A stretch of 32,186 nt of DNA. Origin: an uncultured Methanosarcinales archaeon. Lineage in GTDB: Archaea > Halobacteriota > Methanosarcinia > Methanotrichales > Methanotrichaceae. Shown here in pieces: positions 2,428 through 31,796 of this stretch. The notes under the pieces were generated by a model that worked only from the letters and a program-made list of their open reading frames with translations, ran no database searches and was not told where the DNA came from. Positions within the stretch are counted from its first letter, which is position 1. Every line of letters begins with the position of its first letter. Location of the stretch: assembly GCA_903871465.1 (NCBI GenBank), contig CAIQHB010000041.1, positions 1-32,186 of the forward strand. Reading direction: 5' to 3'. The translations under genes were made by a program, and so were the position numbers.

Positions 2428-3525
2428 TCAGGCGGTAGCTGCTAGATCTCCTTCATCTCCTCCATTATTGCTGTTGTCGACGCTGCCACCAAGTCCCATG
2501 CAGTTGCACTGGCCGTTAGCCCATTGACATCCGTTGCTCTGGCACTCTGCGACCGGGTTTGGCGCCGGATTGAAAGGCTCTGGCTCTGGATTGGGATTAG
2601 GAACCGGTCCCGGCATGGGCTCAGGTTCTCCTCCCCGGCAATAGCAATGTCCATTGACCCAATCGCAGGTCGGACTAGCCTCACATTTTTCCTTTTCCGT
2701 ATCCACATCACCAGTGCATAGACACTGCCCGTCAACCCAATGGCAGAGCGGATTTTTCTCGCATTCCGCTACAGGATTAGGAGCCGGCTGGCAAATGCAT
2801 CCGCCATTCTCCCATTTGCATAGAGGTTGTTTCTCGCATTCCTCTTTCGGGCTGGGTTTGGGGGTCGGATTGATTTTGATGTAATTTCCTGCCGGATAGA
2901 CGTCTATTGTTACTGCATTGCTATATCCGCTATTGGTGGAAAACAGGCTGCGATGCCGTCCTGATGTATCTGCATAGTACCAGATGTAGTAGAAGCCGGA
3001 CTGAACCATTCCGAGGCTATAGCTCAGCACAAAGCCGCCTGGATAAATCTCGTACATGTTGACGGGAGACGCCTGCGGCACGTAGATCAGCTCTCTTGTC
3101 CATCCGCCCCTGGGCAGTGTGGCATAAAGAGTCCAGCTCACGGCTCTTTCTATCCATAGGCCTGGATTGTTGCTGGGGTAGGTGGTGGAGAAGTCATTCC
3201 AGGGCAGGTAATTTCCGTTGTAGTACATGTACTGGGGCGGACTCTTAAGAACTGCAGAAGGCACCAGCTTTTCCAGATCTGCCGCGGGTGGAGCCTGCTC
3301 TGAATAGACGGCCATTTCCGTTCCGCCTTCAATAGACGTCGTCCAGGGAGCACCGGTATCAACAAAGGAGTCCTGCGCATCGCTGAGCGGAACCAGAGTA
3401 TTAAAATCTGATATGGTCATATTCTTTGCATTGACATTTCCGGATTGGTCCAGTCCTCCTAGAGATAGGCTGCAAAGGAGCAGTGTGGCTATAGCAATCC
3501 GAAATAACAGAAGTTTTGCCTTCAT
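2428..3525 (-). CDS. Secreted protein with four Cys/Trp-rich C-terminal repeats
   Basis: I do not recognise the family. The start is taken at 3525 (MKAKLLLF) rather than the ATG 30 nt upstream, because GAGGG lies 4 nt before it and a clean signal peptide (LLLFRIAIATLLLCSLSLGG) begins there. Residues about 50-220 form a Tyr/Trp-rich, probably beta domain. The C-terminal part carries four copies of C-x4/5-C-x-W-x4-C-x-C (for example CEKNPLCHWVDGQCLC) at about residues 230-245, 255-270, 281-296 and 328-342, separated by Pro-rich linkers such as PNPNPEPEPFNPAPNP. It ends in an acidic low-complexity tail. The four cysteines per repeat could form disulfides outside the cell or bind metal; this is inference. 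It is monocistronic by spacing. Confidence 0.75.
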   Translation of the reverse strand: MKAKLLLFRIAIATLLLCSLSLGGLDQSGNVNAKNMTISDFNTLVPLSDAQDSFVDTGAPWTTSIEGGTEMAVYSEQAPPAADLEKLVPSAVLKSPPQYMYYNGNYLPWNDFSTTYPSNNPGLWIERAVSWTLYATLPRGGWTRELIYVPQASPVNMYEIYPGGFVLSYSLGMVQSGFYYIWYYADTSGRHRSLFSTNSGYSNAVTIDVYPAGNYIKINPTPKPSPKEECEKQPLCKWENGGCICQPAPNPVAECEKNPLCHWVDGQCLCTGDVDTEKEKCEASPTCDWVNGHCYCRGGEPEPMPGPVPNPNPEPEPFNPAPNPVAECQSNGCQWANGQCNCMGLGGSVDNSNNGGDEGDLAATA

Positions 3526-3943: not shown

Positions 3944-5647
3944 TCAGGCCAGGAGGAAGTGCAGTGTGGTTCCGACAAGGAGAGCCGCCACCAGCCTCAG
4001 TGCCACCGACTTCAGGGTTCCCGAGACTCCCAGCTCCTTCAGCATCACCATGAAGGTGGCGACACATGGAAAATACATAGCCAGGACGACTGAAGCAATC
4101 ACCAATTGCTCAGGCGACATATCCAGGGGTGCGAACATGCCGATCCCCACATCCTTCCTCAAGAAGCCGATGATCAATGCGGTGGCGGCGTCACTGGGAA
4201 GCCCCAGCAGCCCGGAGACGACCGGCCTCAAGTCCCGGCCGATGATCTGCATCAAGCCCGAGAGGTAAAAGAAGTTCATCACTATCATGCCCAGAGCGAT
4301 GTAAGGCACCGCTTCCTTCAGAAACTCCCGGACGCGAATGAAGGTCTTCTTCAAGAGCGAGCGCAGGTTTGGCATGCGGTAGGGTGGAATCTCCATAAAG
4401 ATCTCCGGAGACTCGCCGCCGATTAACCTGTGCAGAACGAATCCTGTGGTCACAAAGGTGCAAAAGAGGGTCAGGTAGACCATGAGGATGTACTTCAGGC
4501 CGTAGGGAGCTAGGATCCCGAAGATCATGGCGCTCTGCGAGGCGCATGGGATGGCCATGGTCATGAGAGTGGCGGCAAGATATCTCTGCTTGGGAGACTC
4601 CAGTATCCGCACCGAGAGGACCGCAGGCACGCTGCATCCCATTCCAAGCACGCAAGGCAGGATGGCAGCGCCGTGCAGGCCGATCCTGTGCATGAGCGCA
4701 TCCAGGATGACGCTAAGACGGGGTAAGTAGCCGATATCCTCCAGGATGCCCAGCACCAGGTAGAAAGGGATCAGGAAAGGCAGTACCACACCGAGAGGAA
4801 TGTAGAGGCCTGTGGTGATGATGCCGAAGGACTTGAGGAGCTCGGGAGAGGTTCCGATCAGAATGTTTCTCAGCAGCGCTGAACTGATGTGGCTTTCCAC
4901 TACCTCGCTTATGAACTGGGAGTAGGCGAAGAATATGGGATCGGTGATCTTCAGTTGCAGGAGCTCTCCGATGCGGATCACCAGGCTGAAGGAGAAATAG
5001 AGCACCAGCAAGGCAATGGGAATGCCACTCATTGGCTTGATGGAGATATCCTCCAATTTATCGAAGATGGAAGGGTGTCTGTGCAGGACCTTCTGGGTCT
5101 TTCCCGCAATCTCGCCGATGCGCGCCCAGCGCTGGTCTGAGGACTCGAAGTGGATCGGAGACGGGGGCGCTTTTGCGCCCGCCAACGCCTCCACCAGCTC
5201 GTAAATGCCCTGGCCGCTCACGGCCACTGTGGGAACCACGGAGACGCCCAGTTCTTTTTCCAGAGCCTGCGTGTCTATCTCGATGCCTTTGTGGGTGGCT
5301 ACGTCCCAGAGATTGAGGGCGACGACCGTAGGCAACCCCCATTCCAGGATCTGCAGAGTTAAGTTGAGGTTGCGCTCCAGGTTGGTGGAGTCGATTACGT
5401 TTACTATTACGTCCGCTCCCTGGGCGAAGATCTGGCGGGTGACCTCTTCCACATTGGAGGTCGGGTCCAGCGAGTAGACTCCGGGCGCGTCTACGAGCGT
5501 CGCCATCTGCTCGCCCAGCTTCATTCGTCCTTCCGTGTACTCCACTGTGGTGCCGGGGTAGTTGGCCGAGACTACCTCGATTCCGGTAAGCCGGGAAAAT
5601 ATGACGCTCTTTCCCACATTGGGGTTTCCCATGAGGAGGATCTTCAA
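3944..5647 (-). CDS. feoB: Ferrous iron transport GTPase FeoB
   Basis: FeoB is the inner-membrane Fe(II) transporter with an N-terminal G domain. All G motifs are present: GNPNVGKS (7-14), Thr33/34 switch, DAPG (53-56), NLWD (112-115) and SGQG (144-147). The membrane part from about residue 210 contains several hydrophobic segments and typical FeoB stretches (LGILEDIGYLPRLSVILDALM, GLHGAAILPCVLGMGCSVPA, PCVATF near the end). At 567 residues it is shorter than E. coli FeoB (773), as is common in archaea. The start is TTG at 5647, with GGAG 10 nt upstream; the next ATG (residue 6) would delete strand beta-1 of the G domain and no upstream in-frame ATG was found. No feoA is adjacent on either side, which is unusual but not rare. 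Transcribed alone by spacing. Confidence 0.95.
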   Translation of the reverse strand: MKILLMGNPNVGKSVIFSRLTGIEVVSANYPGTTVEYTEGRMKLGEQMATLVDAPGVYSLDPTSNVEEVTRQIFAQGADVIVNVIDSTNLERNLNLTLQILEWGLPTVVALNLWDVATHKGIEIDTQALEKELGVSVVPTVAVSGQGIYELVEALAGAKAPPSPIHFESSDQRWARIGEIAGKTQKVLHRHPSIFDKLEDISIKPMSGIPIALLVLYFSFSLVIRIGELLQLKITDPIFFAYSQFISEVVESHISSALLRNILIGTSPELLKSFGIITTGLYIPLGVVLPFLIPFYLVLGILEDIGYLPRLSVILDALMHRIGLHGAAILPCVLGMGCSVPAVLSVRILESPKQRYLAATLMTMAIPCASQSAMIFGILAPYGLKYILMVYLTLFCTFVTTGFVLHRLIGGESPEIFMEIPPYRMPNLRSLLKKTFIRVREFLKEAVPYIALGMIVMNFFYLSGLMQIIGRDLRPVVSGLLGLPSDAATALIIGFLRKDVGIGMFAPLDMSPEQLVIASVVLAMYFPCVATFMVMLKELGVSGTLKSVALRLVAALLVGTTLHFLLA

Positions 5648-6208: not shown

Positions 6209-7165
6209 CTAAGCCCTTGTGATTTCGTTGTAGCAGGTGCAATCAAAGATACCTTTGGCGCTCGTCCCGAAGCCCTTCTGGTCTGGAATGCTCATGTCAC
6301 CCCAGCCGCTAGAACAGCATGGCAGCCAACTATAACCAGAGAACTCATCAGCATCGGTATCATCAGACCTTTCGAATACAGATCTCATCTCTATCTTTCG
6401 TGCCAGATCGTATGTGCCGTAATATCGTTCTTCTCCCTCGCTGAGGGCAGGATAGTTCTTGTGTTTGACATCGTACTGAGAATCTCCTTGCCTATAGCTT
6501 AGATCCGCTATGCCCGTTGTATTGACCTGGATTAGGTAGCCCAAATATTTCGTGGGCTTGAACTCTGCCGATAGGATGGTATCATTGGTAGCCAGCACTG
6601 AGGCATTCATCCTCTGTAGCCAGATAACTGACCTTTGTTCCTTGGACAACTCGTGGTTGTATAGGAAGTATGCACCTACAAAGTCTCCGTTATTTCCTTC
6701 AAAATCTCGGTCATTTATCTGCCGGCCGGAATACGCTAGTGTTTTACTGGCTTTTATGATGACCGGCCATTGTTCATTTTCGTACTCAATTGCGTATATG
6801 TCCGTTCCGATGGGCTTATCAACTGTAATCTCGATTTCGTCCGGGTAAACAGCGGACTGCATCATTATTTCATCTGTGGATTTGTAGCTCCCTTCCAGAG
6901 CATTTGTCCTCTGCTTGAGCCGTACGTCATTAGTTCCAACTTCTTCATAGTAGGATTGGTATGGATGCAGGCTTCTATAACGTGATTCTACGGATGATAT
7001 TTTGCCCTCGACTGAGCTTGAGAGATTGAAGCTGATATTACTGCTCTCGCGATAGATGGACCAGTGAGACGAGTTGGTGTCAACGTGACTCGACCAGTAG
7101 ACACCGCAGACGTTTGAGCTCAGTGCAAATACTATGAGGAGGATTCCCCAATCCCTACGTATCAT
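6209..7165 (-). CDS. Secreted protein of unknown function
   Basis: I do not recognise the family. The N-terminus is a probable signal peptide (RRDWGILLIVFALSSNVCG). The rest (about 300 residues) is polar, rich in Tyr and Ser, with several N-glycosylation sequons (NSS, NIS, NLS, NAS, NDT, NTT), typical of an archaeal exported protein. The C-terminus is cysteine-rich: CCSSGWG and FDCTCYN. A Cys lies near the end of the signal sequence, but the context is not a clear lipobox. The gene is divergent from the beta-helix protein at 7251 across 85 bp, so the two may share a control region. Clear ribosome site not seen; the leader may be short. Confidence 0.65.
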   Translation of the reverse strand: MIRRDWGILLIVFALSSNVCGVYWSSHVDTNSSHWSIYRESSNISFNLSSSVEGKISSVESRYRSLHPYQSYYEEVGTNDVRLKQRTNALEGSYKSTDEIMMQSAVYPDEIEITVDKPIGTDIYAIEYENEQWPVIIKASKTLAYSGRQINDRDFEGNNGDFVGAYFLYNHELSKEQRSVIWLQRMNASVLATNDTILSAEFKPTKYLGYLIQVNTTGIADLSYRQGDSQYDVKHKNYPALSEGEERYYGTYDLARKIEMRSVFERSDDTDADEFSGYSWLPCCSSGWGDMSIPDQKGFGTSAKGIFDCTCYNEITRA

Positions 7166-7250: not shown

Positions 7251-8762
7251 GTGAAACTAATTAAAGGAGCTTTATTATTCGCACTGATTTTTTTGATCAG
7301 TATTTCGTTGACTTCTGGTCTAGAACTCTCAGCCTCGACAGGAGGCAATGACGGTAGTTCTTCAACACATGTCGTTTATGGATCCACTGTAGACGACTAT
7401 GCAAACGAGCATATAGGACTTAATCCTGGAGATGGCACGCTGTCTAACTCGTTTTCCGGCACAGGCAACTTGCCGTCTAGCTTTATTGGCATCAGCGACA
7501 CGAAAGGGAACTATGCCTCTGTTTCTAGGAGCGTTTCTGGAAAACCCATAACCACGAAATGGAACTACGATTGGAATACCTATTACCCATCTTCATCAAC
7601 TGCAGGTTCTGGTGTGGGAGCGTGGCTATCGCTAACTGCAAGCAATGCTTACTCTATATCTGGTGGATCATCCTCATCTAACCGCGAGGGAGACAACGCT
7701 CAAGCGAATATCAATATCAATTCTAATTCATTAACAGATTCCTGGCTCGGCAATTATTATACATATGCTACTGCGTTTACTAATGCAGCTAACGCACATC
7801 AGACCGCAACGATAGGAATCGGAAGCAGCATCGAGCTGTATGGTAGTGCCAAGGACGGCAGCGGACTTTACAGCGTAAATACACAACTCGACGGTTTATC
7901 TGATATAATTGGAGGAAAAATAATTAAAGGCAAAGCCAGTTTTGTAGGGTTAGATGGGTCCTCCTCAGCTGGAACCATCACTCAAGCGGTGCAAAGTGAA
8001 CACGTTCATGGATTATTCACCGGTACAGCCACGGCAGATACACAAACCAAGACTAGGACCTCCAACTATGGCTCAGACTATGACATAAGTCTAGGGGCCG
8101 CTAAGTCTTCAGGTATTCCAGTTGCAAATGGGATCGTAGGGTATTACGTTACTCCTTTCATGGAGATCCAGGGGGCAGTGAACGCAGCCGAATCTGGTGA
8201 TACAATCAATATAGCACCTTGGACCTTCAAAGAGAATGTCCGTATAGACAAATCGTTGACTTTAATTGGAGCTGGTAGGAGTAGTACCATAGTTGATGGC
8301 AATAAGGCGGGTTCAGTTTTCACTATAGGCGGTACCAATCCGAATATCGGTGTGACCCTCTCCGGCTTGAATGTCCAGAACGGTAAAGCATCAAACGGTG
8401 GTGGCATTTTTAATATGGGCAAACTCACGCTAGTAGACAGCACCCTTTCCGGGAATTCAGCCACCAATTCAGGCGGAGGAATCTATAATGGAAATGGAGG
8501 CAATTTGTTTATAGGCGGAACGAGTCAGATAGTGAATAATCAGGCTATTACAGGGTATGGTGGTGGGATATCCTCCATTGGCTCAGTGACGCTTGACGGT
8601 ACTAAAGTCGTTGTAAAAAACAATAAGGCCTACCTCCCTGATACGCTTCCACCTGGGACTCTTTGGTATCAACAATATGGTGTGTATATGACATCAGGCG
8701 CACCAACCACGCTCCACGGATTCAATCCCACAACGCAAGTGACCGGTAACACCAAGATCTAA
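7251..8762 (+). CDS. Secreted right-handed beta-helix (pectin-lyase-fold) protein
   Basis: The protein starts at GTG (7251), chosen because AGGAGGG is 7-8 nt upstream and a signal peptide follows directly (LIKGALLFALIFLISISLTSG). Residues about 25-300 are Ser/Gly/Thr/Asn-rich with no recognised domain. Residues about 300-480 form a beta-helix of the kind found in archaeal surface and adhesin-like proteins: AVNAAESGDTINIAPWTF, then SLTLIGAGRSSTIVDGN, LSGLNVQNGKASNGGGIFN, LTLVDSTLSGNSATNSGGGI and a GGGISSIGSVTLDG rung. The repeated GNSA/NNxA and GGGI steps are typical of this fold. It has no C-terminal membrane anchor or sorting domain, so it is probably released or bound to the cell surface non-covalently. 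Partner and substrate are unknown. Confidence 0.75.
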   Translation: MKLIKGALLFALIFLISISLTSGLELSASTGGNDGSSSTHVVYGSTVDDYANEHIGLNPGDGTLSNSFSGTGNLPSSFIGISDTKGNYASVSRSVSGKPITTKWNYDWNTYYPSSSTAGSGVGAWLSLTASNAYSISGGSSSSNREGDNAQANININSNSLTDSWLGNYYTYATAFTNAANAHQTATIGIGSSIELYGSAKDGSGLYSVNTQLDGLSDIIGGKIIKGKASFVGLDGSSSAGTITQAVQSEHVHGLFTGTATADTQTKTRTSNYGSDYDISLGAAKSSGIPVANGIVGYYVTPFMEIQGAVNAAESGDTINIAPWTFKENVRIDKSLTLIGAGRSSTIVDGNKAGSVFTIGGTNPNIGVTLSGLNVQNGKASNGGGIFNMGKLTLVDSTLSGNSATNSGGGIYNGNGGNLFIGGTSQIVNNQAITGYGGGISSIGSVTLDGTKVVVKNNKAYLPDTLPPGTLWYQQYGVYMTSGAPTTLHGFNPTTQVTGNTKI

Positions 8763-22101: not shown

Positions 22102-23157
22102 GTGCAGCTCGTGATCAATACCTACGGTGCATATCTTCGCAAGAGCGGGAACTGCTTCCTGGTGAAAAGAGATGATAAGAGCTTTGAGGTTGCAGTCAAT
22201 AAAGTCAATAGTATTTTAATTACAACCGCTGCATACATCACCACAGATGCCATTAAGTTGGCTGTAGACAACAATATAGATATCGTCTTTCTCGATGCCC
22301 ACGGCGACCCCTACGGCAGGGTTTGGCATCCCAAGTTAGGTAGCACCACTCTGATCCGGAGGAGGCAACTGGAGATCTACGAGACTCTGGATGGCTTGAA
22401 TCTGGCGAAAGAGTGGGGTTTGAAGAAACTGGATAATCAGATAGAGCTTCTCGTCAGGCTGAAGAAGACAAGAGTTGAGACGCGGGATGAGCTGGATCGG
22501 TACATCGAGGATATTGAGCATTCCCGTGAGAAGATGAAGAGGCTGCGGGGCACGATCGAAGCCCGGCGGCAGGATATGCTGGGCCTGGAGGGCATGGCTG
22601 CCAGGACCTATTTCGAGGCCCTCTCCTCTATCATGCCGGAAAAGTACAGGTTCGCGGGAAGGAGCAGAAATCCGGCCAAGGACGAGTTCAATGCCTTGCT
22701 CAACTACGGATATGGCGTCCTCTACTCACTGATGGAAAAGGGATGCATAATCGCTGGCCTCGATCCCTACTTAGGCTTTTTGCATAGCGACTCCTACAAC
22801 AAGAAGTCACTGGTCTTCGATATCATAGAGATGTTCCGGATCTACGTCGATGAGACGGTGGTTTATCTTTTCTCCAGGAGGATGGTCAAGGATGAGTTCT
22901 TCGAGCCGCTGGAGCAGGGGATGGGCCTGAGCAAGGACGGGAAGGCGGCATTGATCGAGGCGCTCAACAAGACACTGGAGGAGACAATAGTCTACCGGGG
23001 CCGCAATGTGAAGACGAGGAACACCATCCAGATGGAGTGCCACAGGATAGCCAACGGGCTCATCCGGCCCGGCCAGGAGCTGCCGGACGACTTCGATCTG
23101 GATATTCTGGAGTCGGAAGAATACAAGGGAAGGCAAACGGAACCGGACGCAAAATAG
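22102..23157 (+). CDS. cas1: CRISPR integrase Cas1
   Basis: Cas1 is the integrase that inserts new spacers together with Cas2. The catalytic triad is visible: Glu163 (GLEGMAARTYF), His228 (GFLHSDSYNKKSLVFD) and Glu243 (DIIEMFRIYVDE). The N-terminal beta domain (LVINTYGAYLRKSGNCFLVKR, VDNNIDIVFLDAHGDP) is typical. Length 351 is normal. The start is GTG at 22102 with GAGG 7 nt upstream; the overlapping ATG at 22100 is in another frame. It is first in the operon cas1-cas2-cas4 with only 9 bp to cas2. Confidence 0.96.
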   Translation: MQLVINTYGAYLRKSGNCFLVKRDDKSFEVAVNKVNSILITTAAYITTDAIKLAVDNNIDIVFLDAHGDPYGRVWHPKLGSTTLIRRRQLEIYETLDGLNLAKEWGLKKLDNQIELLVRLKKTRVETRDELDRYIEDIEHSREKMKRLRGTIEARRQDMLGLEGMAARTYFEALSSIMPEKYRFAGRSRNPAKDEFNALLNYGYGVLYSLMEKGCIIAGLDPYLGFLHSDSYNKKSLVFDIIEMFRIYVDETVVYLFSRRMVKDEFFEPLEQGMGLSKDGKAALIEALNKTLEETIVYRGRNVKTRNTIQMECHRIANGLIRPGQELPDDFDLDILESEEYKGRQTEPDAK

Positions 23158-23166
23158 AGGTTGCTA

Positions 23167-23454
23167 ATGCTGGTCTGGGTGATTTACGACATATCGGAGA
23201 ATAGATTCCGCAGCCGGGTAGCGAAGATCTGCAAGAACTATGGCCTGTTCCGGGTGCAGAAGAGCGCCTTCCTGGGCGACCTGAACCGGAACGAGTCCGA
23301 TTCCCTGGCCCTGGAGTGTGAGGCGACCATTGAGGAATCCGATTCGGTCTACGTCTTTCCCATGTGCGAGGACTGTTTCGACAAGATAAAACTGATTGGG
23401 GCAGGATTTGATCGGGAAATGGTGAGCGGCATGACGATAACCAAGGTATTCTGA
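23167..23454 (+). CDS. cas2: CRISPR-associated endoribonuclease / adaptation protein Cas2
   Basis: 95 residues starting MLVWVIYDISENRFRSRVAK, the Cas2 fold start with the conserved Asp8 after the first strand. KNYGLFRVQKSAFLGDLNRN and SDSVYVFPMCEDC are typical of the family. The ATG at 23167 is chosen because GAGG lies 6 nt before it; a TTG two codons upstream is less likely. It forms the Cas1-Cas2 integration complex. The next gene, cas4, starts 7 bp downstream. Confidence 0.94.
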   Translation: MLVWVIYDISENRFRSRVAKICKNYGLFRVQKSAFLGDLNRNESDSLALECEATIEESDSVYVFPMCEDCFDKIKLIGAGFDREMVSGMTITKVF

Positions 23455-23461
23455 GGGCAAA

Positions 23462-24115
23462 ATGGAGACGGATGCAGAAATTGAAGCCTCGCACGCGCAG
23501 GCACAGGCGCGGGAGAGCGTGCTCGCGCCTGAGCAGGAGATTTTCGTAACGGTATCCGATGCCCTGGAGTATCTCTTCTGTCCCAGGTTCATCTACTTCA
23601 TGCATTGCCTGGACATCGCCCAAAGAGAAGAGCGGCGCTTCAAGGTCCAGAAGGGCAGAGAACTGCACGATAGCCGGGAGAAGGTAAACCGGGATTACGT
23701 GAGAAAGAAGCTCAACTGCGTCCGAAAAGAGATCTCAGTTTATCTTACTTCGCATAAATATCACTTCAAAGGAGAAGTCGATGAAATTCTCTTTCTGGAT
23801 GATGGAACGGCAGCGCCTCTGGATTACAAGTATGCGGAATTCAAGGACACCGTTTACAAGACGCACAAGTTTCAGGCTGCTCTTTACGGGCTGCTCATCA
23901 TGGAGCACTTCGGGGTGGATGTTAAGCGGGGCTTTGTCTGTTATACGAGGAGCAACAATCATGTGGAAGAGATAGACTTCCAGCAAAAAGATTATGAGAA
24001 GGCAAAGGAGATTGTGCGCGAGATATTGATGATAATTCAGAGGGGATACTATCCCGAAGGGACGAAGCAGAAGGTCAGGTGCGTGGACTGCACGTATAGG
24101 AATATATGCGTTTGA
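23462..24115 (+). CDS. cas4: CRISPR adaptation exonuclease Cas4
   Basis: Cas4 is a RecB-like nuclease with a 4Fe-4S cluster that trims prespacers and selects those with a PAM. The cluster cysteines are Cys40 (LFCPR) and Cys207, Cys210, Cys216 at the C-terminus (RCVDCTYRNICV). The nuclease motifs are GEVDEI and LDYKYAEF, with a QAALYGLLI (QxxxY) motif. The first 25 residues are Ala/Glu/Gln-rich and extend beyond the usual start. GAGG lies 5-8 nt upstream. It ends the adaptation operon; a 289-bp non-coding gap separates it from cas8b. Confidence 0.94.
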   Translation: METDAEIEASHAQAQARESVLAPEQEIFVTVSDALEYLFCPRFIYFMHCLDIAQREERRFKVQKGRELHDSREKVNRDYVRKKLNCVRKEISVYLTSHKYHFKGEVDEILFLDDGTAAPLDYKYAEFKDTVYKTHKFQAALYGLLIMEHFGVDVKRGFVCYTRSNNHVEEIDFQQKDYEKAKEIVREILMIIQRGYYPEGTKQKVRCVDCTYRNICV

Positions 24116-24147
24116 TTGATGAAAAATGGAACGACATGGAGAGAAAC

Positions 24148-24156
24148 AAATTTATT
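24148..24156 (+). promoter_or_regulatory. Possible TATA box of the crRNA-like RNA
   Basis: AAATTTATT lies about 30 nt before the first degenerate repeat (24182), so transcription would start at or just before that repeat. Supported only by sequence. Confidence 0.35.
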
Positions 24157-24181
24157 CTTTGCAATGAGAATACGAAAATAG

Positions 24182-24296
24182 AATCGATAGTATCTTCCCT
24201 AGTAACAAGGATTGAAACAGTGTTAAGGGTGTATTCGCTGATGTTTTCAGCGTTACCATGTTTAGATAACGCTTCCACCATAACAAGGATTGAGTT
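24182..24296 (+). ncRNA. Degenerate two-repeat mini-CRISPR: candidate CreA/CreR-like regulatory RNA
   Basis: A degenerate repeat at 24182-24218 matches the array repeat at 24 of 37 positions, including all of the last 15 (AACAAGGATTGAAAC) and TTCC at 14-17. A second at 24260-24296 matches 20 of 37, again with TTCC and AACAAGGATTGA, but has lost the final AAC. They are 78 bp apart, as in a real array, and lie in the same direction as cas genes. Between them is a 41-nt pseudo-spacer (24219-24259). Its first 16 nt pair, with one mismatch, with the cas8b promoter at 24340-24355. The first repeat keeps the exact 8-nt handle ATTGAAAC needed on a mature crRNA; the second keeps only what Cas6 processing would need. 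Known type I-B CreA and CreR RNAs have this layout. The pseudo-spacer also holds a hairpin, CGCTGA-5-TCAGCG (24236-24252). Confidence 0.75.
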
Positions 24297-24328
24297 GATT
24301 GGATTAAGGCTAGGGGTTATTCCAAGCG

Positions 24329-24355
24329 ATAAATTATTAAGTGTAAAGGGTGTAT
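24329..24355 (+). promoter_or_regulatory. cas8b promoter with overlapping target of the crRNA-like RNA
   Basis: An AT-rich box ATAAATTATTAA (24329-24340) is a likely TATA element for cas8b, predicting transcription from about 24358-24362. The target AGTGTAAAGGGTGTAT (24340-24355) directly follows it and equals pseudo-spacer nt 1-16 except position 6. The three bases before the target are TTA, which would be the PAM. Cascade bound here would cover the space between TATA box and transcription start. Confidence 0.65.
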
Positions 24356-24404
24356 CAAGTTTAATGCAAATCCAAGAAGCAGTCAATACGCATCGGTGAT
24401 TTGA

Positions 24405-26285
24405 GTGATCGAGGCCGTAAGCAGAATCGGAGATTATATGCAAAAAAATAAAGGTGAGAATGATTTACTATCTGCCTTTATCGAAAATCCAAATACCAAT
24501 GGAAAATATAAAGTTGTATTGATCGTGGTATTGAACGAGCGATATGGTGATTATTCATTTTGTCGCGTTGCGTTTGATGAGTTCAGCGATTATCCACGAT
24601 ATCTATATAAAAAAGGTCCATCAAATGGCACTAATGCGACACCTACTAGCAAGATAGCAGGTGATATTGGGAAAACATTCCAAAACAGATTCTTAAAATG
24701 GTTCCAGAACTATGAAACCTACGATATCTCAGAAGAAGAAAAAGAATCTCTCAAAAAGATGAACATGGCAATAAGAGATCAAAAAGAAACTATCTTAGCC
24801 GATCTACAGGAAAAATTTTCTCAAAAGAAATCTGATGAAAATGCCATCATAACCTTGGGGATCGAGAGAGATGGGGAGATGAGCTATCTTGGGGATCAAC
24901 AGGTTTTCAAAAATATTTTGCTCAGGAAAGGCAAAGACAAATATTATCTCAAGTCTCAGGGAAAATCGCTTGGGAAAGATTCTGCCTGCTCCGTCTGCAA
25001 AGAGGTGAAAGAAGAAGTCTATGGCTTCGCAATTCCCTGGACATTTCATACCTTTGACAAACCCGGATTTATTGCGGGTGGTTTTGAGGTCAATGAATCC
25101 TGGAAAAATACTCCCGTGTGCTTCGATTGTGCCACGCGCCTGGAAGTTGGAAAGAAGTACATCGAGGAAAATCTCGATTATGGCTTCTATGGCTTCAGAT
25201 ATCTCCTCGTTCCAAAATTGACCATGGCAGGGGACGAAAATGAGGCCCTTGAAGAGGTCCTGGACATCCTGGGCAATAAGGATGAAAAAAGAAAGATAAA
25301 AATAAATCGAGAAATTAAGAACCGAATAACCGCAGATGAGAATGAGATATTTGCGTTTGTCAAGGATCAGAAAGATTTCTTCAGCAACAGCCTGATATTT
25401 TATAAAAAGGAGCAATCGTCTTATAGAATTCTTCTCTTAATCGAAGGAATTCTTCCGTCAAGACTGAAGGCTCTCTTTAATGCCAAAGAAAAGGTCGATG
25501 AGAGATTTAATATATACAATGATTCGATTCTTAGCGAAACACAGAGGGAAAAGAATCACTTGGAGTTCAATTTTGGAGTCCTAAGACGATTCTTCCCGTC
25601 CGAGTCTAAAAATAGAACATTCGACAAAATATTCTTGGAAATGGTTGACAAGATCTTTGTTGGAGATCAAATCAGTTACCATTTGTTGATAGATTTTATA
25701 ATGAGCAAAGTGAGAGAGGCGTTCGTCAAGGATTATTCTACTAATATCACTACTTTGAACGGCTTCTTGCTATTGCACTATATTGAGAAGCTTAATCTTT
25801 TCAAAGCAAATAAAGCGGAGATGAAAGAGATGAATGAACGAGGCAGTGAGGTTCTTCGCATCGAAGAGCTTGAGAGTCTCCCATTAGAGCAACGCATTGA
25901 GAGGTTCTTCGAAGCAAACAAGGCGTTCTTCAATAGCGATGGCAAGAAGGCAACATTCCTGGAAGGAGTATTGACTCAGAAGCTCCTTAACATACAATGG
26001 ATGGACAAAAAGGCAACTCCATTCCGCACCAAGCTCCATGGCTTGAAGATGAATGAACCATTGATCAAGAGGCTCCTTCCGGAAATTCAGAACAAGCTGG
26101 AGGAATACGGGAAGAATTATTACCGAGATTTGGAATCTATCATTGCACATTATTTTGTTTTAGCTGGGGTTAATTGGAAAGAAGTAGATGATGAGCTAAG
26201 CTTCTACTTTGTTTTGGGAATGGACATGCATAAGCTGTTTAAGAATACAAAAGAGATGGATGAGCAAATTGGTGAGGGGGCATAA
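24405..26285 (+). CDS. cas8b: Type I-B Cascade large subunit Cas8b (TM1802-like)
   Basis: Cas8b recognises the PAM and completes the Cascade surveillance complex. The start MIEAVSRIGDYM and the following LLSAFIENPNTNGKYKVVL match the Cas8b/TM1802 family. A zinc-binding pair is present: Cys195-x2-Cys198 (ACSVCKE) and Cys239-x2-Cys242 (VCFDCA). The later region GFYGFRYLLVPKLT is typical. 626 residues is normal. The start is GTG at 24405; no strong ribosome site is visible, and a later ATG (residue 12) is the alternative. It is the first gene of the effector operon cas8b-cas7-cas5-cas3, whose promoter is the probable target of the crRNA-like RNA just upstream. Confidence 0.9.
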   Translation: MIEAVSRIGDYMQKNKGENDLLSAFIENPNTNGKYKVVLIVVLNERYGDYSFCRVAFDEFSDYPRYLYKKGPSNGTNATPTSKIAGDIGKTFQNRFLKWFQNYETYDISEEEKESLKKMNMAIRDQKETILADLQEKFSQKKSDENAIITLGIERDGEMSYLGDQQVFKNILLRKGKDKYYLKSQGKSLGKDSACSVCKEVKEEVYGFAIPWTFHTFDKPGFIAGGFEVNESWKNTPVCFDCATRLEVGKKYIEENLDYGFYGFRYLLVPKLTMAGDENEALEEVLDILGNKDEKRKIKINREIKNRITADENEIFAFVKDQKDFFSNSLIFYKKEQSSYRILLLIEGILPSRLKALFNAKEKVDERFNIYNDSILSETQREKNHLEFNFGVLRRFFPSESKNRTFDKIFLEMVDKIFVGDQISYHLLIDFIMSKVREAFVKDYSTNITTLNGFLLLHYIEKLNLFKANKAEMKEMNERGSEVLRIEELESLPLEQRIERFFEANKAFFNSDGKKATFLEGVLTQKLLNIQWMDKKATPFRTKLHGLKMNEPLIKRLLPEIQNKLEEYGKNYYRDLESIIAHYFVLAGVNWKEVDDELSFYFVLGMDMHKLFKNTKEMDEQIGEGA

Positions 26286-26287
26286 AA

Positions 26288-27205
26288 ATGAGCGAGGAAG
26301 TTAAGAACAGATCAGAGATTCTTTTTATCTACGACATAAGAGACGGAAATCCTAACGGAGATCCAATGGACGAGAACAAGCCTAGGATCGATGAAGAGAC
26401 GGGAATCAACCTTGTAACTGATGTCAGGTTGAAGAGGACTATTCGGGACTATCTCCACAATTTCAAGGATCAGGAGATCTTCGTTAGAGAGGTCACTTAT
26501 GATGCCGAGGGACATGTTCAGGATGGAAAGATGAGAGCAGGTAACTTCGCCAATGATGCCACTAGAATCTTAAATGAGTGCATAGATATTCGTCTCTTCG
26601 GAGGAGTAATACCTTTAAAAGAGGACTCGATAATCTATACCGGCCCAGTTCAGTTCAAGATGGGCCGTTCGCTCCATCGCGTCACCATGATGCATATCAA
26701 AGGCACTGGAGCCTTTGCCTCGAAGGAGGGTTCAAAGCAGGCAACCTTTAGAGAAGAGGACTTCCTGGCATATTCGCTTATCTCCTTTTATGGCATCATA
26801 AACGAGAATGCTGCCAAACATACTCATCTTACCGAAGAGGATTTGAATCTCTTGATGGAAGGTATCTGGAATGGGACAAAGAGCTTGATTTCGAGATCTA
26901 AAGCAGGACAGGTTCCAAGGTTGCTCCTGAAGGTGAATTACAGCAAAGCTAACTATCACATAGGAGACCTGGATAAAATGATGAAGCTGAAAACCGAGAT
27001 TCCTCATGAGAACATTCGTGACACTGCAGATTACCAGCTTGACGTCTCCGAGCTGGTCAAGAAACTTGCTGCTGAAAAGGGCTCAATCAAGAATATCGAG
27101 ATTTGCGTGGACGACAGAATTCGGTTCAGCAAAGATGGGGCCGATTTCCCAATTGAGGGATTGGCAGAGGCTTCGGGCATCGCCATAAAGCCAATTGCTT
27201 TTTGA
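26288..27205 (+). CDS. cas7: Type I-B Cascade backbone Cas7 (Csh2 family)
   Basis: Cas7 subunits form the helical backbone that holds the crRNA. Family marks: IFIYDIRDGNPNGDPMDENKPR-type start (here LFIYDIRDGNPNGDP), DVRLKRTIRDYL, DIRLFGGVIP, GPVQFKMGRSLH and HLTEEDLNLLMEGIWNGT. 305 residues is normal. The start is 2 bp after the cas8b stop with GGGG 6-9 nt before the ATG. As a known property of the fold, its thumb flips out every sixth crRNA base, relevant to the position-6 mismatch described for the crRNA-like RNA. Confidence 0.95.
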   Translation: MSEEVKNRSEILFIYDIRDGNPNGDPMDENKPRIDEETGINLVTDVRLKRTIRDYLHNFKDQEIFVREVTYDAEGHVQDGKMRAGNFANDATRILNECIDIRLFGGVIPLKEDSIIYTGPVQFKMGRSLHRVTMMHIKGTGAFASKEGSKQATFREEDFLAYSLISFYGIINENAAKHTHLTEEDLNLLMEGIWNGTKSLISRSKAGQVPRLLLKVNYSKANYHIGDLDKMMKLKTEIPHENIRDTADYQLDVSELVKKLAAEKGSIKNIEICVDDRIRFSKDGADFPIEGLAEASGIAIKPIAF

Positions 27206-27212
27206 GGTCCAG

Positions 27213-27920
27213 ATGCAGGAGAGAGTAATAGTATTCGATGTGTGGGGGGACTACGCTCACTTCAGGAAGAATTACTCTACCAGCTCTCCACTCACCTATT
27301 CTTTCCCACCTCGAACGGCTCTCTCTGGGCTGATCGGGGCCATCGTCGGTCTAGATAAATCGGAGTATTTCAGGCACTTCTTTAAAGTTGATGCCAAAAT
27401 CGGATGCAAGATCCTCCAACCTGTTAAAAAAGTTAGGATCGGAGAGAACCTGATCGACACCAAGAGCGCAGTTAAGATGCATCTGATCAAGAACCGAACC
27501 CAGATCAGATTCGAGTTCGTCAAAGATCCGATGTACAGGATTTACTTCACTCACTCCGATGAGCAATTGTATAAAAAACTCAAAGACCTGCTCACCAGCC
27601 ATCAATCTGTGTACACGCCGTGTCTCGGACTGAGCCAGCTCATCTGCAACTTTCAGTTTGTAGGTGAGTTTGGGCTGAAGAGTTCCGGAGATGAAGTCCA
27701 GGAAATAGATAGTGTCGTGCCGGGCAAATGCCTTCTGGAGCCTCCTGATTTCGAGGAGGGAAACGAATACTTCTCTGAGGTTATGCCTGGCGAGATGGGA
27801 GAGGAGCGGGTGGTAACAGACTACAGCGAGATTCTTTTTGAGAGAAATGGAGAGAAAATCAAAGCGAAGTCCAAAGAGCTTTGGGAGGTCGGTAATGGCG
27901 AGCGAATCGTATTCCTTTAA
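27213..27920 (+). CDS. cas5: Type I-B Cascade subunit Cas5 (Cas5h-like)
   Basis: Cas5 caps the 5' handle of the crRNA. The protein begins MQERVIVFDVWGDYAHFRKN, then SSPLTYSFPPRTALSGLIGA, the conserved Cas5 start (F-x-G-x-x-A-x-F and PPRTxLxGLIGA). The start is ATG at 27213, with GAGG 5 nt before it; an upstream TTG in the same frame would overlap cas7 and lacks a ribosome site. It overlaps the cas3 start by 26 nt. About 235 residues is normal. Confidence 0.93.
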   Translation: MQERVIVFDVWGDYAHFRKNYSTSSPLTYSFPPRTALSGLIGAIVGLDKSEYFRHFFKVDAKIGCKILQPVKKVRIGENLIDTKSAVKMHLIKNRTQIRFEFVKDPMYRIYFTHSDEQLYKKLKDLLTSHQSVYTPCLGLSQLICNFQFVGEFGLKSSGDEVQEIDSVVPGKCLLEPPDFEEGNEYFSEVMPGEMGEERVVTDYSEILFERNGEKIKAKSKELWEVGNGERIVFL

Positions 27921-30387
27921 GCTTAAGTCTCACCCTGATTTGCAGGATGGTCGAATCCGACCCTTGCTGGATCACTTGAGATGTGTAGGGCATTTAAGCA
28001 GGAAAACTGTTACAGATAAATCTCTAAACATAGATGACAAGGATCTTCTGACAGACGCTGCTTATCTGATAGGTGTTACGCATGACCTGGGAAAAGCTAC
28101 GAAATTTTTCCAGGAGTACATTGTTGAGAAAGATGAGACGAAAAAGAAGTCCCTCAAAGCCAAGGATAACACACATCATGGCCTGCTCTCGGCTTTCTTT
28201 ACTTACGCGGTAATCAAAGAATACCTGAGCCAATCAAAGATAAAAGGAGGATTATCGGATTACATTCCCATCTTATCTTTCCTAGTTGTGAAGAGGCATC
28301 ATGGAAACCTTATGAATGCCATGGACGAGTTAAGCGAGGTGAATGCGGAGAATGAGAAAATATTGAAGGTAGCGGAAGAGCAGATCGCGTCAATAGATCG
28401 AACTGAGATTAATGAAATCCTGACATTGCTTTTTCATGAAGGGAAGATTGATTTAAAAATCGATATTAATGATATTATTAATTACATCTTGAAGGATGCA
28501 TGCAATGAGATTGGTGGAAAGGAAAGGCGCCTGATAAGGCATCTCAATCGAAAGATAGATCTTTACCCGTATTTCATAACTCAGTTTCTCTATTCTGCCC
28601 TTCTGGATGCAGATAAGACTGACGCGGGGCTAGGTGACAAATATCTGGATTCAGATCGTTTAGACCTTTCAGCAGACCTGGTGGATCAATATAGAGACCG
28701 GAAAGGATTCACTTCAGACAGAAATAATATTAATAGTCTCAGGAATCAGATCTATGAAGATGCAATGGCAGGAATTAGGGATTGGAACCTCGATAATAGA
28801 ATCATCTCATTGAATGTCCCAACTGGCACCGGCAAAACTTTGACTTCTCTTTCCTTTGCCCTAAAGCTCAGAGATCGATTGAAGAATGAGAGAAATTTCA
28901 CGCCCAGGATAATCTACGCTCTGCCTTTCCTGAGTATAATAGATCAAAATTACGATGTCTTTAAAGATGTTATCTCTCAAGAGGGAGAACTTAAAGATTC
29001 CAGGCTTCTTCTCAAGCACCATCATCTAGCGGATGTAAACTACAAAATAGAAGATAAAGATGCTGAATTTTATAAGGCCGACGAAAGCCTCTTGCTCCTG
29101 GAAGGCTGGAACGCAGAGATAATTGTAACCACATTTTGGCAGTATTTCTACACGCTTTTCTCAAACAAAAATAAATTGCTTCGCAAGTTCAACAAGCTGG
29201 CCAACTCCATAATTATTCTGGACGAAGTGCAAGCAGTCCCTCACCAGTACTGGCAGTTGATTCACGACGCGACGAAGATGCTTTGCGAGAAGTTCAATAG
29301 CTATGTTGTCTTCGTTACGGCAACTGAGCCGCTCATATTCGATGAAGCGACAGGGGAGATAAAGGAGATCGTGCAGAAGAAAGAGGAATACTTCCGGGGC
29401 CTGGACAGAATTGAACTGATTCCCAGAATCGAGACGGCTTTGACTCTGGAGGAATTCAAGGTCTTGCTGGAAGAGGATCTAACCGACAATTCTAAAAAAG
29501 ATTTCCTGATCGTTCTCAACACCATTAGCTCAGCTAACGACGTTTACAAGTTCATTAAGGGCCTGGAGTTAGAGAATACTGAGAATTTTTACTTATCCAC
29601 AAATGTGATTCCGAAGGAGAGGTTGGAGCGGATAAAAAAGATCAAGGGACCTTCGGAAAATAGGGTGCCAAATGAGTCTCAAGAAAAAAGAAAAGTCATA
29701 GTGAGCACTCAATTGATTGAGGCCGGTGTAGATATCGATGCAGACAGAGTCTATCGAGACTTCGCTCCCATGGATTCCATAAACCAAGTGGCAGGTAGAT
29801 GCAACAGGAACTCGGCCAAAGCAGATAAAGGCACGGTATCAATATTTATTTTAAAAGATGATCGAAAAGAATTTTATAAATACATCTACGATCCATTCTT
29901 AATGAGCAAGACCCTTGACATCCTAAAACCGATTAAGGGTTCAATTCGAGAATCAGCTATATTGGAGTTGAACAACAAATACTTCAAAGCCGTGAAGAGG
30001 GGCATGGGTGATGAGAAATCAAAGGAAAATCTGGCCTGTCTGTCACAGTTGTCCTTCCAGGATCTGAGCAAGAAGTTCAAGTTGATCGAGGAGGATTATC
30101 CCAAGGTAAATGTTTTTGTAGAGCTAGATAAAACAGCTGCAGAAGTCTGGGCGAAGTATCAAGATTTGCGAATGGTGAAGGACATCAAAGAAAGGATAAG
30201 GAAAAAACTGGAGATAAGGAAAGATTTCAGCGAGTATGTGATCTCCGCACCAGAAAAGTACGCTCATAACCTGGTCACTGAAGACTCCGAAATGGGCTAT
30301 ATTTCAAGAGATGAGCTGCCCAACTACTACGATCTGGAGACAGGCTTCATGCGGGCCGGAGCCGGAGAGGGCTCCATGATCATCTGA
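27895..30387 (+). CDS. cas3: CRISPR helicase-nuclease Cas3
   Basis: Cas3 is the nuclease-helicase that degrades DNA bound by Cascade. The HD nuclease is N-terminal: His63-Asp64 (GVTHDLGKATKFFQEY), then THHGLLSAFF and KRHHGNLM. Helicase motifs: TGTGKT (310-315), DEVQ (443-446), FVTATEP, STQLIEAGVDID and MDSINQVAGRCNR. The start is ATG at 27895 with GGGAGG 6-7 nt before it; longer in-frame starts run deep into cas5. 830 residues. Followed after 15 bp by a truncated cas6 copy. Confidence 0.94.
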   Translation: MASESYSFKLKSHPDLQDGRIRPLLDHLRCVGHLSRKTVTDKSLNIDDKDLLTDAAYLIGVTHDLGKATKFFQEYIVEKDETKKKSLKAKDNTHHGLLSAFFTYAVIKEYLSQSKIKGGLSDYIPILSFLVVKRHHGNLMNAMDELSEVNAENEKILKVAEEQIASIDRTEINEILTLLFHEGKIDLKIDINDIINYILKDACNEIGGKERRLIRHLNRKIDLYPYFITQFLYSALLDADKTDAGLGDKYLDSDRLDLSADLVDQYRDRKGFTSDRNNINSLRNQIYEDAMAGIRDWNLDNRIISLNVPTGTGKTLTSLSFALKLRDRLKNERNFTPRIIYALPFLSIIDQNYDVFKDVISQEGELKDSRLLLKHHHLADVNYKIEDKDAEFYKADESLLLLEGWNAEIIVTTFWQYFYTLFSNKNKLLRKFNKLANSIIILDEVQAVPHQYWQLIHDATKMLCEKFNSYVVFVTATEPLIFDEATGEIKEIVQKKEEYFRGLDRIELIPRIETALTLEEFKVLLEEDLTDNSKKDFLIVLNTISSANDVYKFIKGLELENTENFYLSTNVIPKERLERIKKIKGPSENRVPNESQEKRKVIVSTQLIEAGVDIDADRVYRDFAPMDSINQVAGRCNRNSAKADKGTVSIFILKDDRKEFYKYIYDPFLMSKTLDILKPIKGSIRESAILELNNKYFKAVKRGMGDEKSKENLACLSQLSFQDLSKKFKLIEEDYPKVNVFVELDKTAAEVWAKYQDLRMVKDIKERIRKKLEIRKDFSEYVISAPEKYAHNLVTEDSEMGYISRDELPNYYDLETGFMRAGAGEGSMII

Positions 30388-30402
30388 GGCGACAAATGAT
30401 AA

Positions 30403-30530
30403 ATGAATCTCAAAATCCTCCGTCTCACCCTCCACGCGGGCGCGTCCCTGCGCGGGGATGGGAACGCGGCCAAGCTGCTGGCTTCCTTGCCCCAGATTCA
30501 ACGAACATGCCCTCCTGCACCAGCATGTGA
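30403..30530 (+). pseudogene. cas6: Truncated, frameshifted 5' copy of cas6
   Basis: Starting at an ATG 15 bp after cas3, this stretch matches the first 124 bp of the intact cas6 at 31140-31263. The protein begins MNLKILRLTLHAGA against MILKILRLTLHSDA, and after a net 2-base loss near 30481-30495 continues RFNEHALLHQHV against SFNEYALLHQHV. It also has a 6-base insertion (GN). The match stops abruptly at CACCAGCATGTGA. Roughly four of five bases agree, so it is an older or diverged copy, not a recent duplication. It marks the original cas6 position next to cas3. Confidence 0.85.
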
Positions 30531-30614
30531 TTGGTCACAAAGGCCAAAAAAGCCATAAAGACAGACATCGCAACAGCAGGTATCAAATATCAATACAGCT
30601 TAAGAGCTATCACA

Positions 30615-30851
30615 ATGAGGACACTAAATTACAAAGTTCTGCTCCGAAAAGAGGACGATGGGACTTATACGGTGATCGTGCCTTCGCTACCAGGCTGCCT
30701 GACTTTCGGGAGGACCGTAGAAGAGGCATTAGAAATGGCAAAAGAAGCCATTGAAGGCTTCATAGCTTGTATGGTTGCGCGTGGCGAAGAGGTTCCCATC
30801 GAAAACTGTGATTCAATGGTATGCACTATTGCAGTTGAAGCAAATGCCTGA
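30615..30851 (+). CDS. hicB: HicB-family antitoxin
   Basis: 78 residues: LNYKVLLRKEDDGTYTVIVP, LPGCLTFGRTVEEALEMAKE and AIEGFIACMVARGEEVP are the typical partial RNase H-like HicB fold. The ATG at 30615 is chosen because the family begins near it; the longer frame from 30531 adds a basic, unrelated extension. It neutralises the HicA RNA-cleaving toxin encoded 36 bp downstream. Antitoxin-first order is one of the two known arrangements. A separate DNA-binding domain is not evident. Confidence 0.85.
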   Translation: MRTLNYKVLLRKEDDGTYTVIVPSLPGCLTFGRTVEEALEMAKEAIEGFIACMVARGEEVPIENCDSMVCTIAVEANA

Positions 30852-30887
30852 GCCTTAGATGACAACGAACGCATAACCTTGATTGAC

Positions 30888-31112
30888 ATGGCTAAACTAC
30901 CCTGCATACCACCTGAAAAGCTCGCAAGAATACTTGAAAAATGTGGATTTGAGCTGGAAAGGATCTGTGGTAGTCATCACTTTTACCATAATCCCAAAAC
31001 CAAAAAATCTACTGTGATTCCTTTTCACGGAAATGATGTTCCAAAAGGATTATTGAATGAAATCTTAAAAGAGGCAGGTATCAGTCGTGATGAGTTCTTC
31101 GATAATCTCTAA
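30888..31112 (+). CDS. hicA: HicA-family mRNA interferase toxin
   Basis: 74 residues, MAKLPCIPPEKLARILEKCG then GSHHFYHNPKTKKSTVIPFH, the double-stranded RNA-binding-like fold of HicA with catalytic His in GSHHF. It ends PKGLLNEILKEAGISRDEF. An upstream TTG (30879) is in frame, but the ATG fits the family. The toxin cleaves mRNA when HicB is lost. It sits inside the cas locus between a dead and an intact cas6, where it could make loss of the locus costly; this is inference. Confidence 0.88.
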   Translation: MAKLPCIPPEKLARILEKCGFELERICGSHHFYHNPKTKKSTVIPFHGNDVPKGLLNEILKEAGISRDEFFDNL

Positions 31113-31139
31113 AGCCGCTTATGTTGGTGCTGAATACCT

Positions 31140-31796
31140 ATGATCCTCAAAATCCTCCGTCTCACCCTGCACTCGGACGCGCCCATGCACGGGGACGCGG
31201 CCAAGCTGCGGGGCTTCTTTGCCACCAGCTTCAACGAATATGCCCTCCTGCACCAGCATGTGACAGACAAGCTGATCTACCGGTATCCTCTCATCCAGTA
31301 CAAAATGCTGGACGGCAGCCCTCTGGTCCTCGGCATCAATGAGGGTGCAGAGATCCTGAAAGAGATTTATGATAAATTCGATGAGATAAAATTAGGGGAT
31401 AGCAACTACTCCATCATGGAGCGCGGCGTGACTGTGAAGAGCGAGGAGTTCGGCTGCACAGAGGAGATCCAGAGCTACAGGTTTGCCATGCCGTGGCTGG
31501 CCCTGAGCCAAGAGAACTACGCCCGGTATATGGGTGCATCTTTGGGGGATCGAAAGGATCTATTGCGAAGAATCCTGGTGGGCAACCTTCTTTCCGCATC
31601 CAAAGGTCTGGGGTATGTGGCCAAGGAGCACATCCGGCTGGAGCTGGGAAGGATGCAGGACGAGATTTGCCTGCTGAAGGGGACCAAGGTGACGGGTTTT
31701 CGAGGGGAGTTCATGACATGCTTTGCCATTCCGGACCATATGGGCCTCGGGAAGTCCGTCTCCAGAGGTTATGGAGCGGTTACAAGATTAAAATAG
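31140..31796 (+). CDS. cas6: CRISPR RNA processing endonuclease Cas6
   Basis: Cas6 cuts the precursor CRISPR RNA within each repeat, leaving the 8-nt handle ATTGAAAC. The protein is a double RAMP: N-terminal LKILRLTLHSDAPMHGDAAK, middle YRYPLIQYKMLDGSPLVLG, and the C-terminal glycine-rich loop GLGKSVSRGYGAVTRLK, diagnostic for Cas6. 218 residues. It has no strong ribosome site and starts 27 bp after hicA. It lies directly before the array leader, unlike most I-B loci where cas6 is next to cas8. Confidence 0.9.
   Translation: MILKILRLTLHSDAPMHGDAAKLRGFFATSFNEYALLHQHVTDKLIYRYPLIQYKMLDGSPLVLGINEGAEILKEIYDKFDEIKLGDSNYSIMERGVTVKSEEFGCTEEIQSYRFAMPWLALSQENYARYMGASLGDRKDLLRRILVGNLLSASKGLGYVAKEHIRLELGRMQDEICLLKGTKVTGFRGEFMTCFAIPDHMGLGKSVSRGYGAVTRLK

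Follow-up and report, generated by a model that had tools for sequence, protein, structure and literature searches.

Gene organization and protein architecture

The stretch of DNA analysed here (the window; 32,186 nucleotides), from an uncultured archaeon of the family Methanotrichaceae, carries a gene for a predicted secreted protein in which a Tyr/Trp-rich domain is followed by a tail of four short Cys/Trp units (Table 1). The original prediction gave the coordinates of this gene correctly but did not include its strand; the gene is on the minus strand, and the plus strand contains 10 stop codons over the same interval. The four C-x4/5-C-x-W-x4-C-x-C units that it described were found as proposed, and so was the Tyr/Trp-rich domain preceding them, with 9.1% Tyr, 3.0% Trp, and 0% Cys over residues 27 to 224. 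The mature N-terminal part of the protein is free of cysteine. The proline linkers of the original prediction stood in part: units 3 and 4 are separated by a Pro-rich stretch, and the linkers joining units 1 to 2 and 2 to 3 are short (9 to 10 residues).

Table 1. Features of the Cys-tail gene, its product, and its upstream neighbour in the window
Feature	Position	Strand	Remarks
Secreted-protein CDS, 365 residues	2428..3525	-	ATG at 3525, stop codon 2428-2430
Predicted Sec signal peptide, ~residues 1-24	3454..3525	-	Read by eye
Tyr/Trp-rich domain, ~residues 91-212, unnamed	2890..3255	-	Paralogous domain of Methanotrichaceae surface proteins
Cys/Trp unit 1, C230-C245, CEKQPLCKWENGGCIC	2791..2838	-	C-x5-C-x-W-x4-C-x-C
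Cys/Trp unit 2, C255-C270, CEKNPLCHWVDGQCLC	2716..2763	-	C-x5-C-x-W-x4-C-x-C
Cys/Trp unit 3, C281-C296, CEASPTCDWVNGHCYC	2638..2685	-	C-x5-C-x-W-x4-C-x-C; modelled helix + hairpin, pLDDT 77
Pro-rich linker, units 3-4, residues 297-327	2545..2637	-	Sequence
Cys/Trp unit 4, C328-C342, CQSNGCQWANGQCNC	2500..2544	-	C-x4-C-x-W-x4-C-x-C
feoB (ferrous iron transporter)	3944..5647	-	Upstream neighbour, 418 bases before ATG; FeoB_N + FeoB_C Pfam matches

Judged by eye from its signal sequence, the gene product is a predicted exported protein. A hydrophobic start with an LGG-like end was recognized by pattern in 26 of 27 orthologs, L031 being the one left unmatched. Comparison with 7 orthologs indicated purifying selection, with dN/dS values of ~0.1 to 0.2 in the N-terminal part and the tail alike; dS was not computable in 2 of the 14 comparisons, and the values derive from the remainder.

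The gene next upstream on the same strand is feoB in 8 of the 16 loci compared (the window, L104, and L106 to L111), which belong to two genera. Its distance to the Cys-tail gene varies from 99 to 418 bases, and it is not found nearby in the other 8 loci. L106 possesses two feoB-like genes, the second one lying in between. We treat this adjacency as synteny, which may simply reflect close relationship of the genomes concerned. Elsewhere in the window, a divergent pair of genes (6209-7165, minus strand; 7251-8762, plus strand) encodes secreted-looking proteins that had no Pfam match at E<=0.001; the product of the latter contains GGG-rich repeats and by eye resembles a beta-helix surface protein. 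A CRISPR-Cas group occupies 22102-31796 on the plus strand, where Cas1, a TM1802-type large subunit, Cas7, and Cas6b were detected by Pfam and cas4-, cas5-, and cas3-like frames in between were recognized by eye.

VKOR is a common archaeal disulfide-forming enzyme; no homolog of it was found in the genome to which the window belongs. Four frames of this genome contain DsbD_TM over the Pfam cut-off (DsbD/CcdA-type thiol transporters), although proteins of the DsbD/CcdA kind can also serve other pathways. The presence of DsbB/DsbD in sheath-forming Methanotrichales is described in the available part of PMC11576556.

Conservation of the Cys/Trp unit

The Cys/Trp unit is real and conserved. When the tail (residues 221 to 365) was shuffled 100,000 times, a single pattern match arose in 83 shuffles and two matches in none. 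A scan of the entire genome (3.13 Mb) with the back-translated pattern gave 17 matches, four of them in the Cys-tail gene. Among the other 13, L013 alone combines an open frame with a fit to the strict amino acid pattern, in a single low-complexity copy (CQIRLICRWLGYCCCC); the remaining 12 were discarded as out of frame, interrupted by stops, situated in short frames, or failing the strict pattern. Searching the same genome with the tail returned the Cys-tail gene only, plus one match at E=0.055 in an 81-residue frame. Further copies of the unit in other secreted proteins of this genome, proposed earlier as a check, were not found.

For statistics across the family, we assembled 107 units from 27 proteins (2 to 7 units per protein), comprising 25 proteins from loci of the tail search, the window gene, and L057, probably identical with the copy in G041. 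The second and third G005 copies and a 152-residue G005 fragment were left out of the counts, as was a partial frame found in duplicate in L031/L056. All 422 of the 422 tail cysteines in these 27 proteins fall inside units, with zero orphans. All four cysteines (C1 to C4) are present in 104 of the 107 units; in the other three, C2 and C4 are jointly missing and C1 and C3 are kept. The segment C2-x-[WY]-x4-C3-x-C4 has the same length in every extracted unit, and the C1-C2 gap ranges from 3 to 9 residues. The aromatic residue is Trp in 92 and Tyr in 15 of the 107 units, and the turn reads NG in 65 and DG in 22.

Two of the units lacking C2 and C4 belong to L029 and one to L031, with Trp standing in the C2 place; L043 has a unit of equal length in which all four cysteines are kept. 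L029 and L031 fall into separate supported groups in the tree of the N-terminal part. However, the three units are alike in length, position, and wording and may share a common source, and in view of this likeness in position and wording we claim at least one event of joint loss only. Unit extraction demanded C1 and C3, which makes the test of Cys loss one-sided. Loss of C1 or C3 would have left an orphan Cys, and none was found; thus, the one-sidedness is limited, yet not removed.

Several carriers showed peculiarities of their own. In L042, L047, L048, L049, L051, and L057 of genus g9, as well as in L031, one unpaired Cys of the N-terminal domain directly follows a GRH motif. This residue, absent from 20 of the 27 proteins, including the window protein, could form cross-links in the species carrying it. 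L048 has a further unit beyond an in-frame TGA (G045:C3, ~32675-32731), so that either the tail is truncated or the sequence contains an error. The Cys-tail gene occurs in two tandem copies, one of them with seven units, at L106/L056 (G022:C122, 6865-9701), and G005 carries three or more copies, spread over different contigs.

Distribution of the Cys tail and searches for known families

The unit was detected at strong E-values in 25 of the 50 genomes of the host family, always within this one protein family. A search of all 50 genomes with the tail gave matches in 28 at E<=0.1; those in G007, G010, and G013 (E 0.003-0.02) were rejected as chance, and 25 were counted as real. With the unit profile, 26 genomes matched at E<=0.05, 25 of them strongly, and the chance-like match in G020 (E 0.015) was set aside. 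Every strong unit match fell in a frame of this protein type, except for those in a 34-residue frame at a G041 contig end and in a 152-residue frame in G005. The Cys-tail protein is present in 14 of 26 genomes of the host genus and in none of the 9 genomes of genus g8. One carrier, Methanothrix sp. LCB019-064 (L057), carries the label Methanotrichaceae in the tree and was joined there to genus g9 with 100/100 support. Profile searches of a phylum sample of 392 genomes yielded nothing convincing beyond the host family; matches in G133, G382, and G312 (E 0.004-0.01, frames of 39-98 residues) were rejected as chance. A mobile or viral origin was likewise considered and dropped, as no match was found in plasmids (searched with the tail only), phages, or viral contigs.

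The original prediction assigned the unit to no named family and held that a profile search placing it in a known one would overturn this view. Searches of Pfam, NCBIfam, PHROGs, and PDB sequences produced no match over cut-off, and its view of the unit stands. The full protein gave only sub-cut-off rows in all four collections; NCBIfam and PHROGs were searched with the full protein only, PDB also with the unit profile, and Pfam also with units and tails. The profile of 31 aligned units matched no PDB chain at E<=10. Searched singly against Pfam, these 31 units gave one weak EB match (E 0.02), below cut-off, and for 10 of the 27 tails all matches stayed below cut-off and were scattered over unrelated families. 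Nine sub-cut-off matches of tail 4 and the rest were dismissed as compositional; one example is a nine-residue match to a galactose-binding domain (E 0.00039). No mention of the protein was found in the available portions of the literature on Methanothrix surface proteins, sheath, and proteome, and no paper was found on cysteine-rich repeats in methanogens. The Cys/Trp repeat appears to be new and is lineage-specific and unnamed.

The N-terminal domain is shared by tail-less paralogs

The window protein (P0001) matches 20 places in its own genome, including its own gene; two of the weaker matches among the 19 further ones lie in short or broken frames. These paralogs mostly appear exported by eye and lack the Cys tail. 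At E<=1e-6, a profile of 12 of the domains found in this genome matched 15 of the 392 phylum genomes, each of them a member of the host family, and the window protein belongs to the Methanotrichaceae Tyr/Trp surface-domain family as defined here (alignment A5). Moreover, 9 of 12 selected tail-less family genomes searched with the N-terminal part hold related domains at E<=1e-15. Together with the profile matches, this indicates that the domain is family-wide and that the tail is a patchy addition to it.

No Pfam family matched the N-terminal domain over cut-off, and its profile gave only weak matches in PDB, namely to acetyltransferases (E 0.03), the C-terminal part of subtilisin (E 0.3-0.4), and filamin (E 0.5-0.8). 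A beta-jelly-roll is our guess for its fold. One paralog had a CBM53 match at E 0.053, below cut-off. In the paralog L063 (C80:74500-76900 of the same genome), a plastocyanin-like cupredoxin (Pfam E 4e-14) is joined to the same Tyr/Trp domain, which makes its product a candidate for surface electron transfer.

Predicted structure and disulfide pairing of the unit

An AlphaFold model of a single 34-residue unit, built from an input of six rows from the window and L057 only, reached a mean pLDDT of 77 (medium confidence) and consists of a helix (residues 3-12) followed by two strands (16-19 and 22-25) that are connected by a two-residue N-G turn. In this model, C1 (residue 10) lies in the helix, C2 (residue 16) is opposite C4 (residue 25), and the Trp (residue 18) is opposite C3 (residue 23). 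The full-length model, computed with one relative, was poor (pLDDT 49) and drew the same helix-hairpin for all four units. Neither Foldseek (0 of 25 matches at E<=0.001) nor VIA-align (0 of 35 chains at Z>=2) found a significant likeness for the unit model, which is too small for both methods; with only 34 residues, this outcome was expected. C2 facing C4 in the model agrees with their joint loss, and this in turn implies a C1-C3 pair. On the basis of this covariation and the medium-confidence model, we favour the helix-hairpin fold with C1-C3/C2-C4 connectivity.

Discussion

Loss of C2 together with C4, the lack of orphan tail cysteines, and the model placing C2 opposite C4 favour two internal disulfides per unit over a metal or redox site. 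Thus, the disulfide module, one of the options in the original prediction, is the best reading of the Cys statistics and the unit model. We consider it probable that each unit is closed by two disulfides and that the tail, displayed by the N-terminal domain at the surface, serves as a tough stalk or in multivalent binding. The protein would start with a signal peptide, followed by a beta-rich domain of ~120 residues common to many surface proteins of the family, and end in 2 to 7 independently folded mini-modules connected by linkers that are either acidic or made of proline. In each module, a short helix carrying C1 would be followed by a beta-hairpin with an Asn/Asp-Gly turn; the C2-C4 disulfide would bridge the hairpin, a second disulfide would tie C1 of the helix to C3, and a core might be provided by the Trp (or Tyr) packing beside the disulfides. 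At the cell surface or in the sheath, such a tail might act as a stalk that withstands proteases and denaturants or might present a series of identical modules for binding, its length being set through duplication and loss of units. The location at the surface is inferred, and a function as stalk or binder is a guess from the architecture.

It is tempting to speculate further that a minimal, ~16-residue, two-disulfide helix-hairpin module was born in Methanotrichaceae, fused once to a lineage-specific surface domain, and spread by duplication as a multivalent tail binding sheath glycans or partner cells, be it in aggregates or in interspecies electron transfer. We put forward this scenario tentatively, as a possible but doubtful one.

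The tail cysteines might act between rather than within molecules, making the protein a covalent cross-linker of sheath hoops. According to the available part of PMC6242892, Methanospirillum sheaths dissolve only with DTT and inter-hoop disulfides were proposed; intermolecular disulfides between hoops were proposed for M. thermophila PT too (PMC6242892 and PMC11576556, both in excerpt). The unpaired Cys after GRH in 7 of the 27 proteins would fit such a role. It is nevertheless unlikely for the tail, since the even Cys count in every unit and the absence of orphans point to closure within units, most of the proteins, that of the window included, have no Cys at all in the mature N-terminal part, and half of the family genomes lack the protein even though members of the group typically have sheaths. 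That the tail is a metal-binding array for iron, zinc, or copper, in which the four cysteines of a unit, with their C-x-C, would hold one metal and perhaps feed FeoB, strikes us as quite unlikely. The number of cysteines per unit, the proximity of feoB in half of the loci, across two genera, and the cupredoxin domain on one paralog of the N-terminal domain speak for this option. However, a four-ligand site of the metallothionein or zinc-ribbon kind would be destroyed in the three units retaining only C1 and C3, the C1-C2 gap is variable, and no His, acidic, or other ligand is conserved at a fixed place; feoB, in turn, is missing from the other half of the loci, lies at varying distance, and may be there by plain synteny. 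The metal- or redox-binding tail envisaged in the original prediction therefore finds no backing in the way cysteines are lost and spaced.

Two further explanations start from the likeness of the unit to the PSI domain (PF01437) of semaphorins, plexins, integrins, and MET/RON. The C-x5-C-x-W stretch of the units, with a Cys after it, is similar to the PSI core, and so is their N-P-x-C-x-W run. If the likeness reflected descent or horizontal transfer, the units would be a degenerate or minimal eukaryotic PSI core. The corresponding run is C23-A-W-C26 in integrin beta3 (PMC12383024, in excerpt), and in RON the Cys536-Cys552 disulfide spans Cys545, the Cys before Trp, just as C1-C3 would span C2 (PMC3405059, in excerpt). 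Semaphorin 7A ranked 7th of 25 in Foldseek, a match that is not significant (E 7.7, 21 columns, 2.0 A, matched part unstated). By contrast, PF01437 had no match in the window's own genome at E<=10 and none in 31 units or 10 tails, VIA-align gave nothing at Z>=2 for a model too small for this method, the PSI Cys equivalent to C2 pairs elsewhere, and occurrence of the unit was observed in a single archaeal family. The PSI domain has eight conserved cysteines forming four disulfides (PMC3405059, in excerpt), against four (or two) per unit and no others in the tail. Because the profile and the cysteine number both speak against it, we did not file the unit as PSI, and a PSI ancestry is very improbable. 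We give next to no weight to the idea that the units are thiol-disulfide active modules, whether redox or isomerase. PSI domains of MET and integrins, whose C-x-W core is similar, have been reported to act as isomerases (PMC9604360 and PMC12383024, both in excerpt), but the units have C-x-C and no C-x-x-C, the strong constraint on the Trp and the turn suggests a role in the fold, and loss of C2 and C4 leaves C1-C3 as the sole pair.

With two internal disulfides as the preferred reading, the Cys/Trp unit ranks among the smaller disulfide repeats proposed, while tandem small disulfide modules on secreted proteins as such are already familiar. Much methane is made by Methanothrix species, whose surface proteins are for the most part without named parts. 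A module that is well delimited and has a predicted pattern of disulfides offers a testable marker for surface biochemistry in Methanothrix-type archaea, in which the composition of the sheath plug is poorly understood (PMC11576556, in excerpt). Should glycans or partner cells prove to be bound by the tail, it would be relevant to the aggregation of Methanothrix filaments.

Among known systems, EGF-like, EB, laminin-EGF, and Dickkopf_N modules resemble the tail in that they are secreted, occur in tandem, and contain a G-x-C-x-C piece. Laminin-EGF appeared below cut-off in 4 of 10 tails (E 0.1-1.3) and Dickkopf_N in 1 of 10 (E 0.0028, 18.4 bits versus the 25 needed). However, modules of the EGF-like and EB type need six or more cysteines, whereas the units of the window protein have four. 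The Methanothrix sheath proteins MspA (Mthe_1069) and SH, compared by description, resemble the Cys-tail protein in its predicted export by the same archaea and in its putative Trp/Tyr-rich beta domain; in contrast to them, the Cys-tail protein is missing from half of the family. Cupredoxin-bearing surface proteins have been described in Methanothrix (PMC10470525, Table 3, in excerpt), from which the window protein differs in having a Cys tail and no cupredoxin. The PSI domain, which acts as a hinge or spacer between surface domains, has a short helix followed by a hairpin with C-x-W, as modelled for the unit, and a disulfide spanning the next Cys, as predicted for C1-C3. It differs in its eight cysteines within ~50 residues, as compared to four within ~16 to 25 residues in a tandem array, and the units, unlike PSI, have an extra C-x-C that would pair with C2. 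By analogy, the unit may work like PSI, as a rigid hinge between surface parts.
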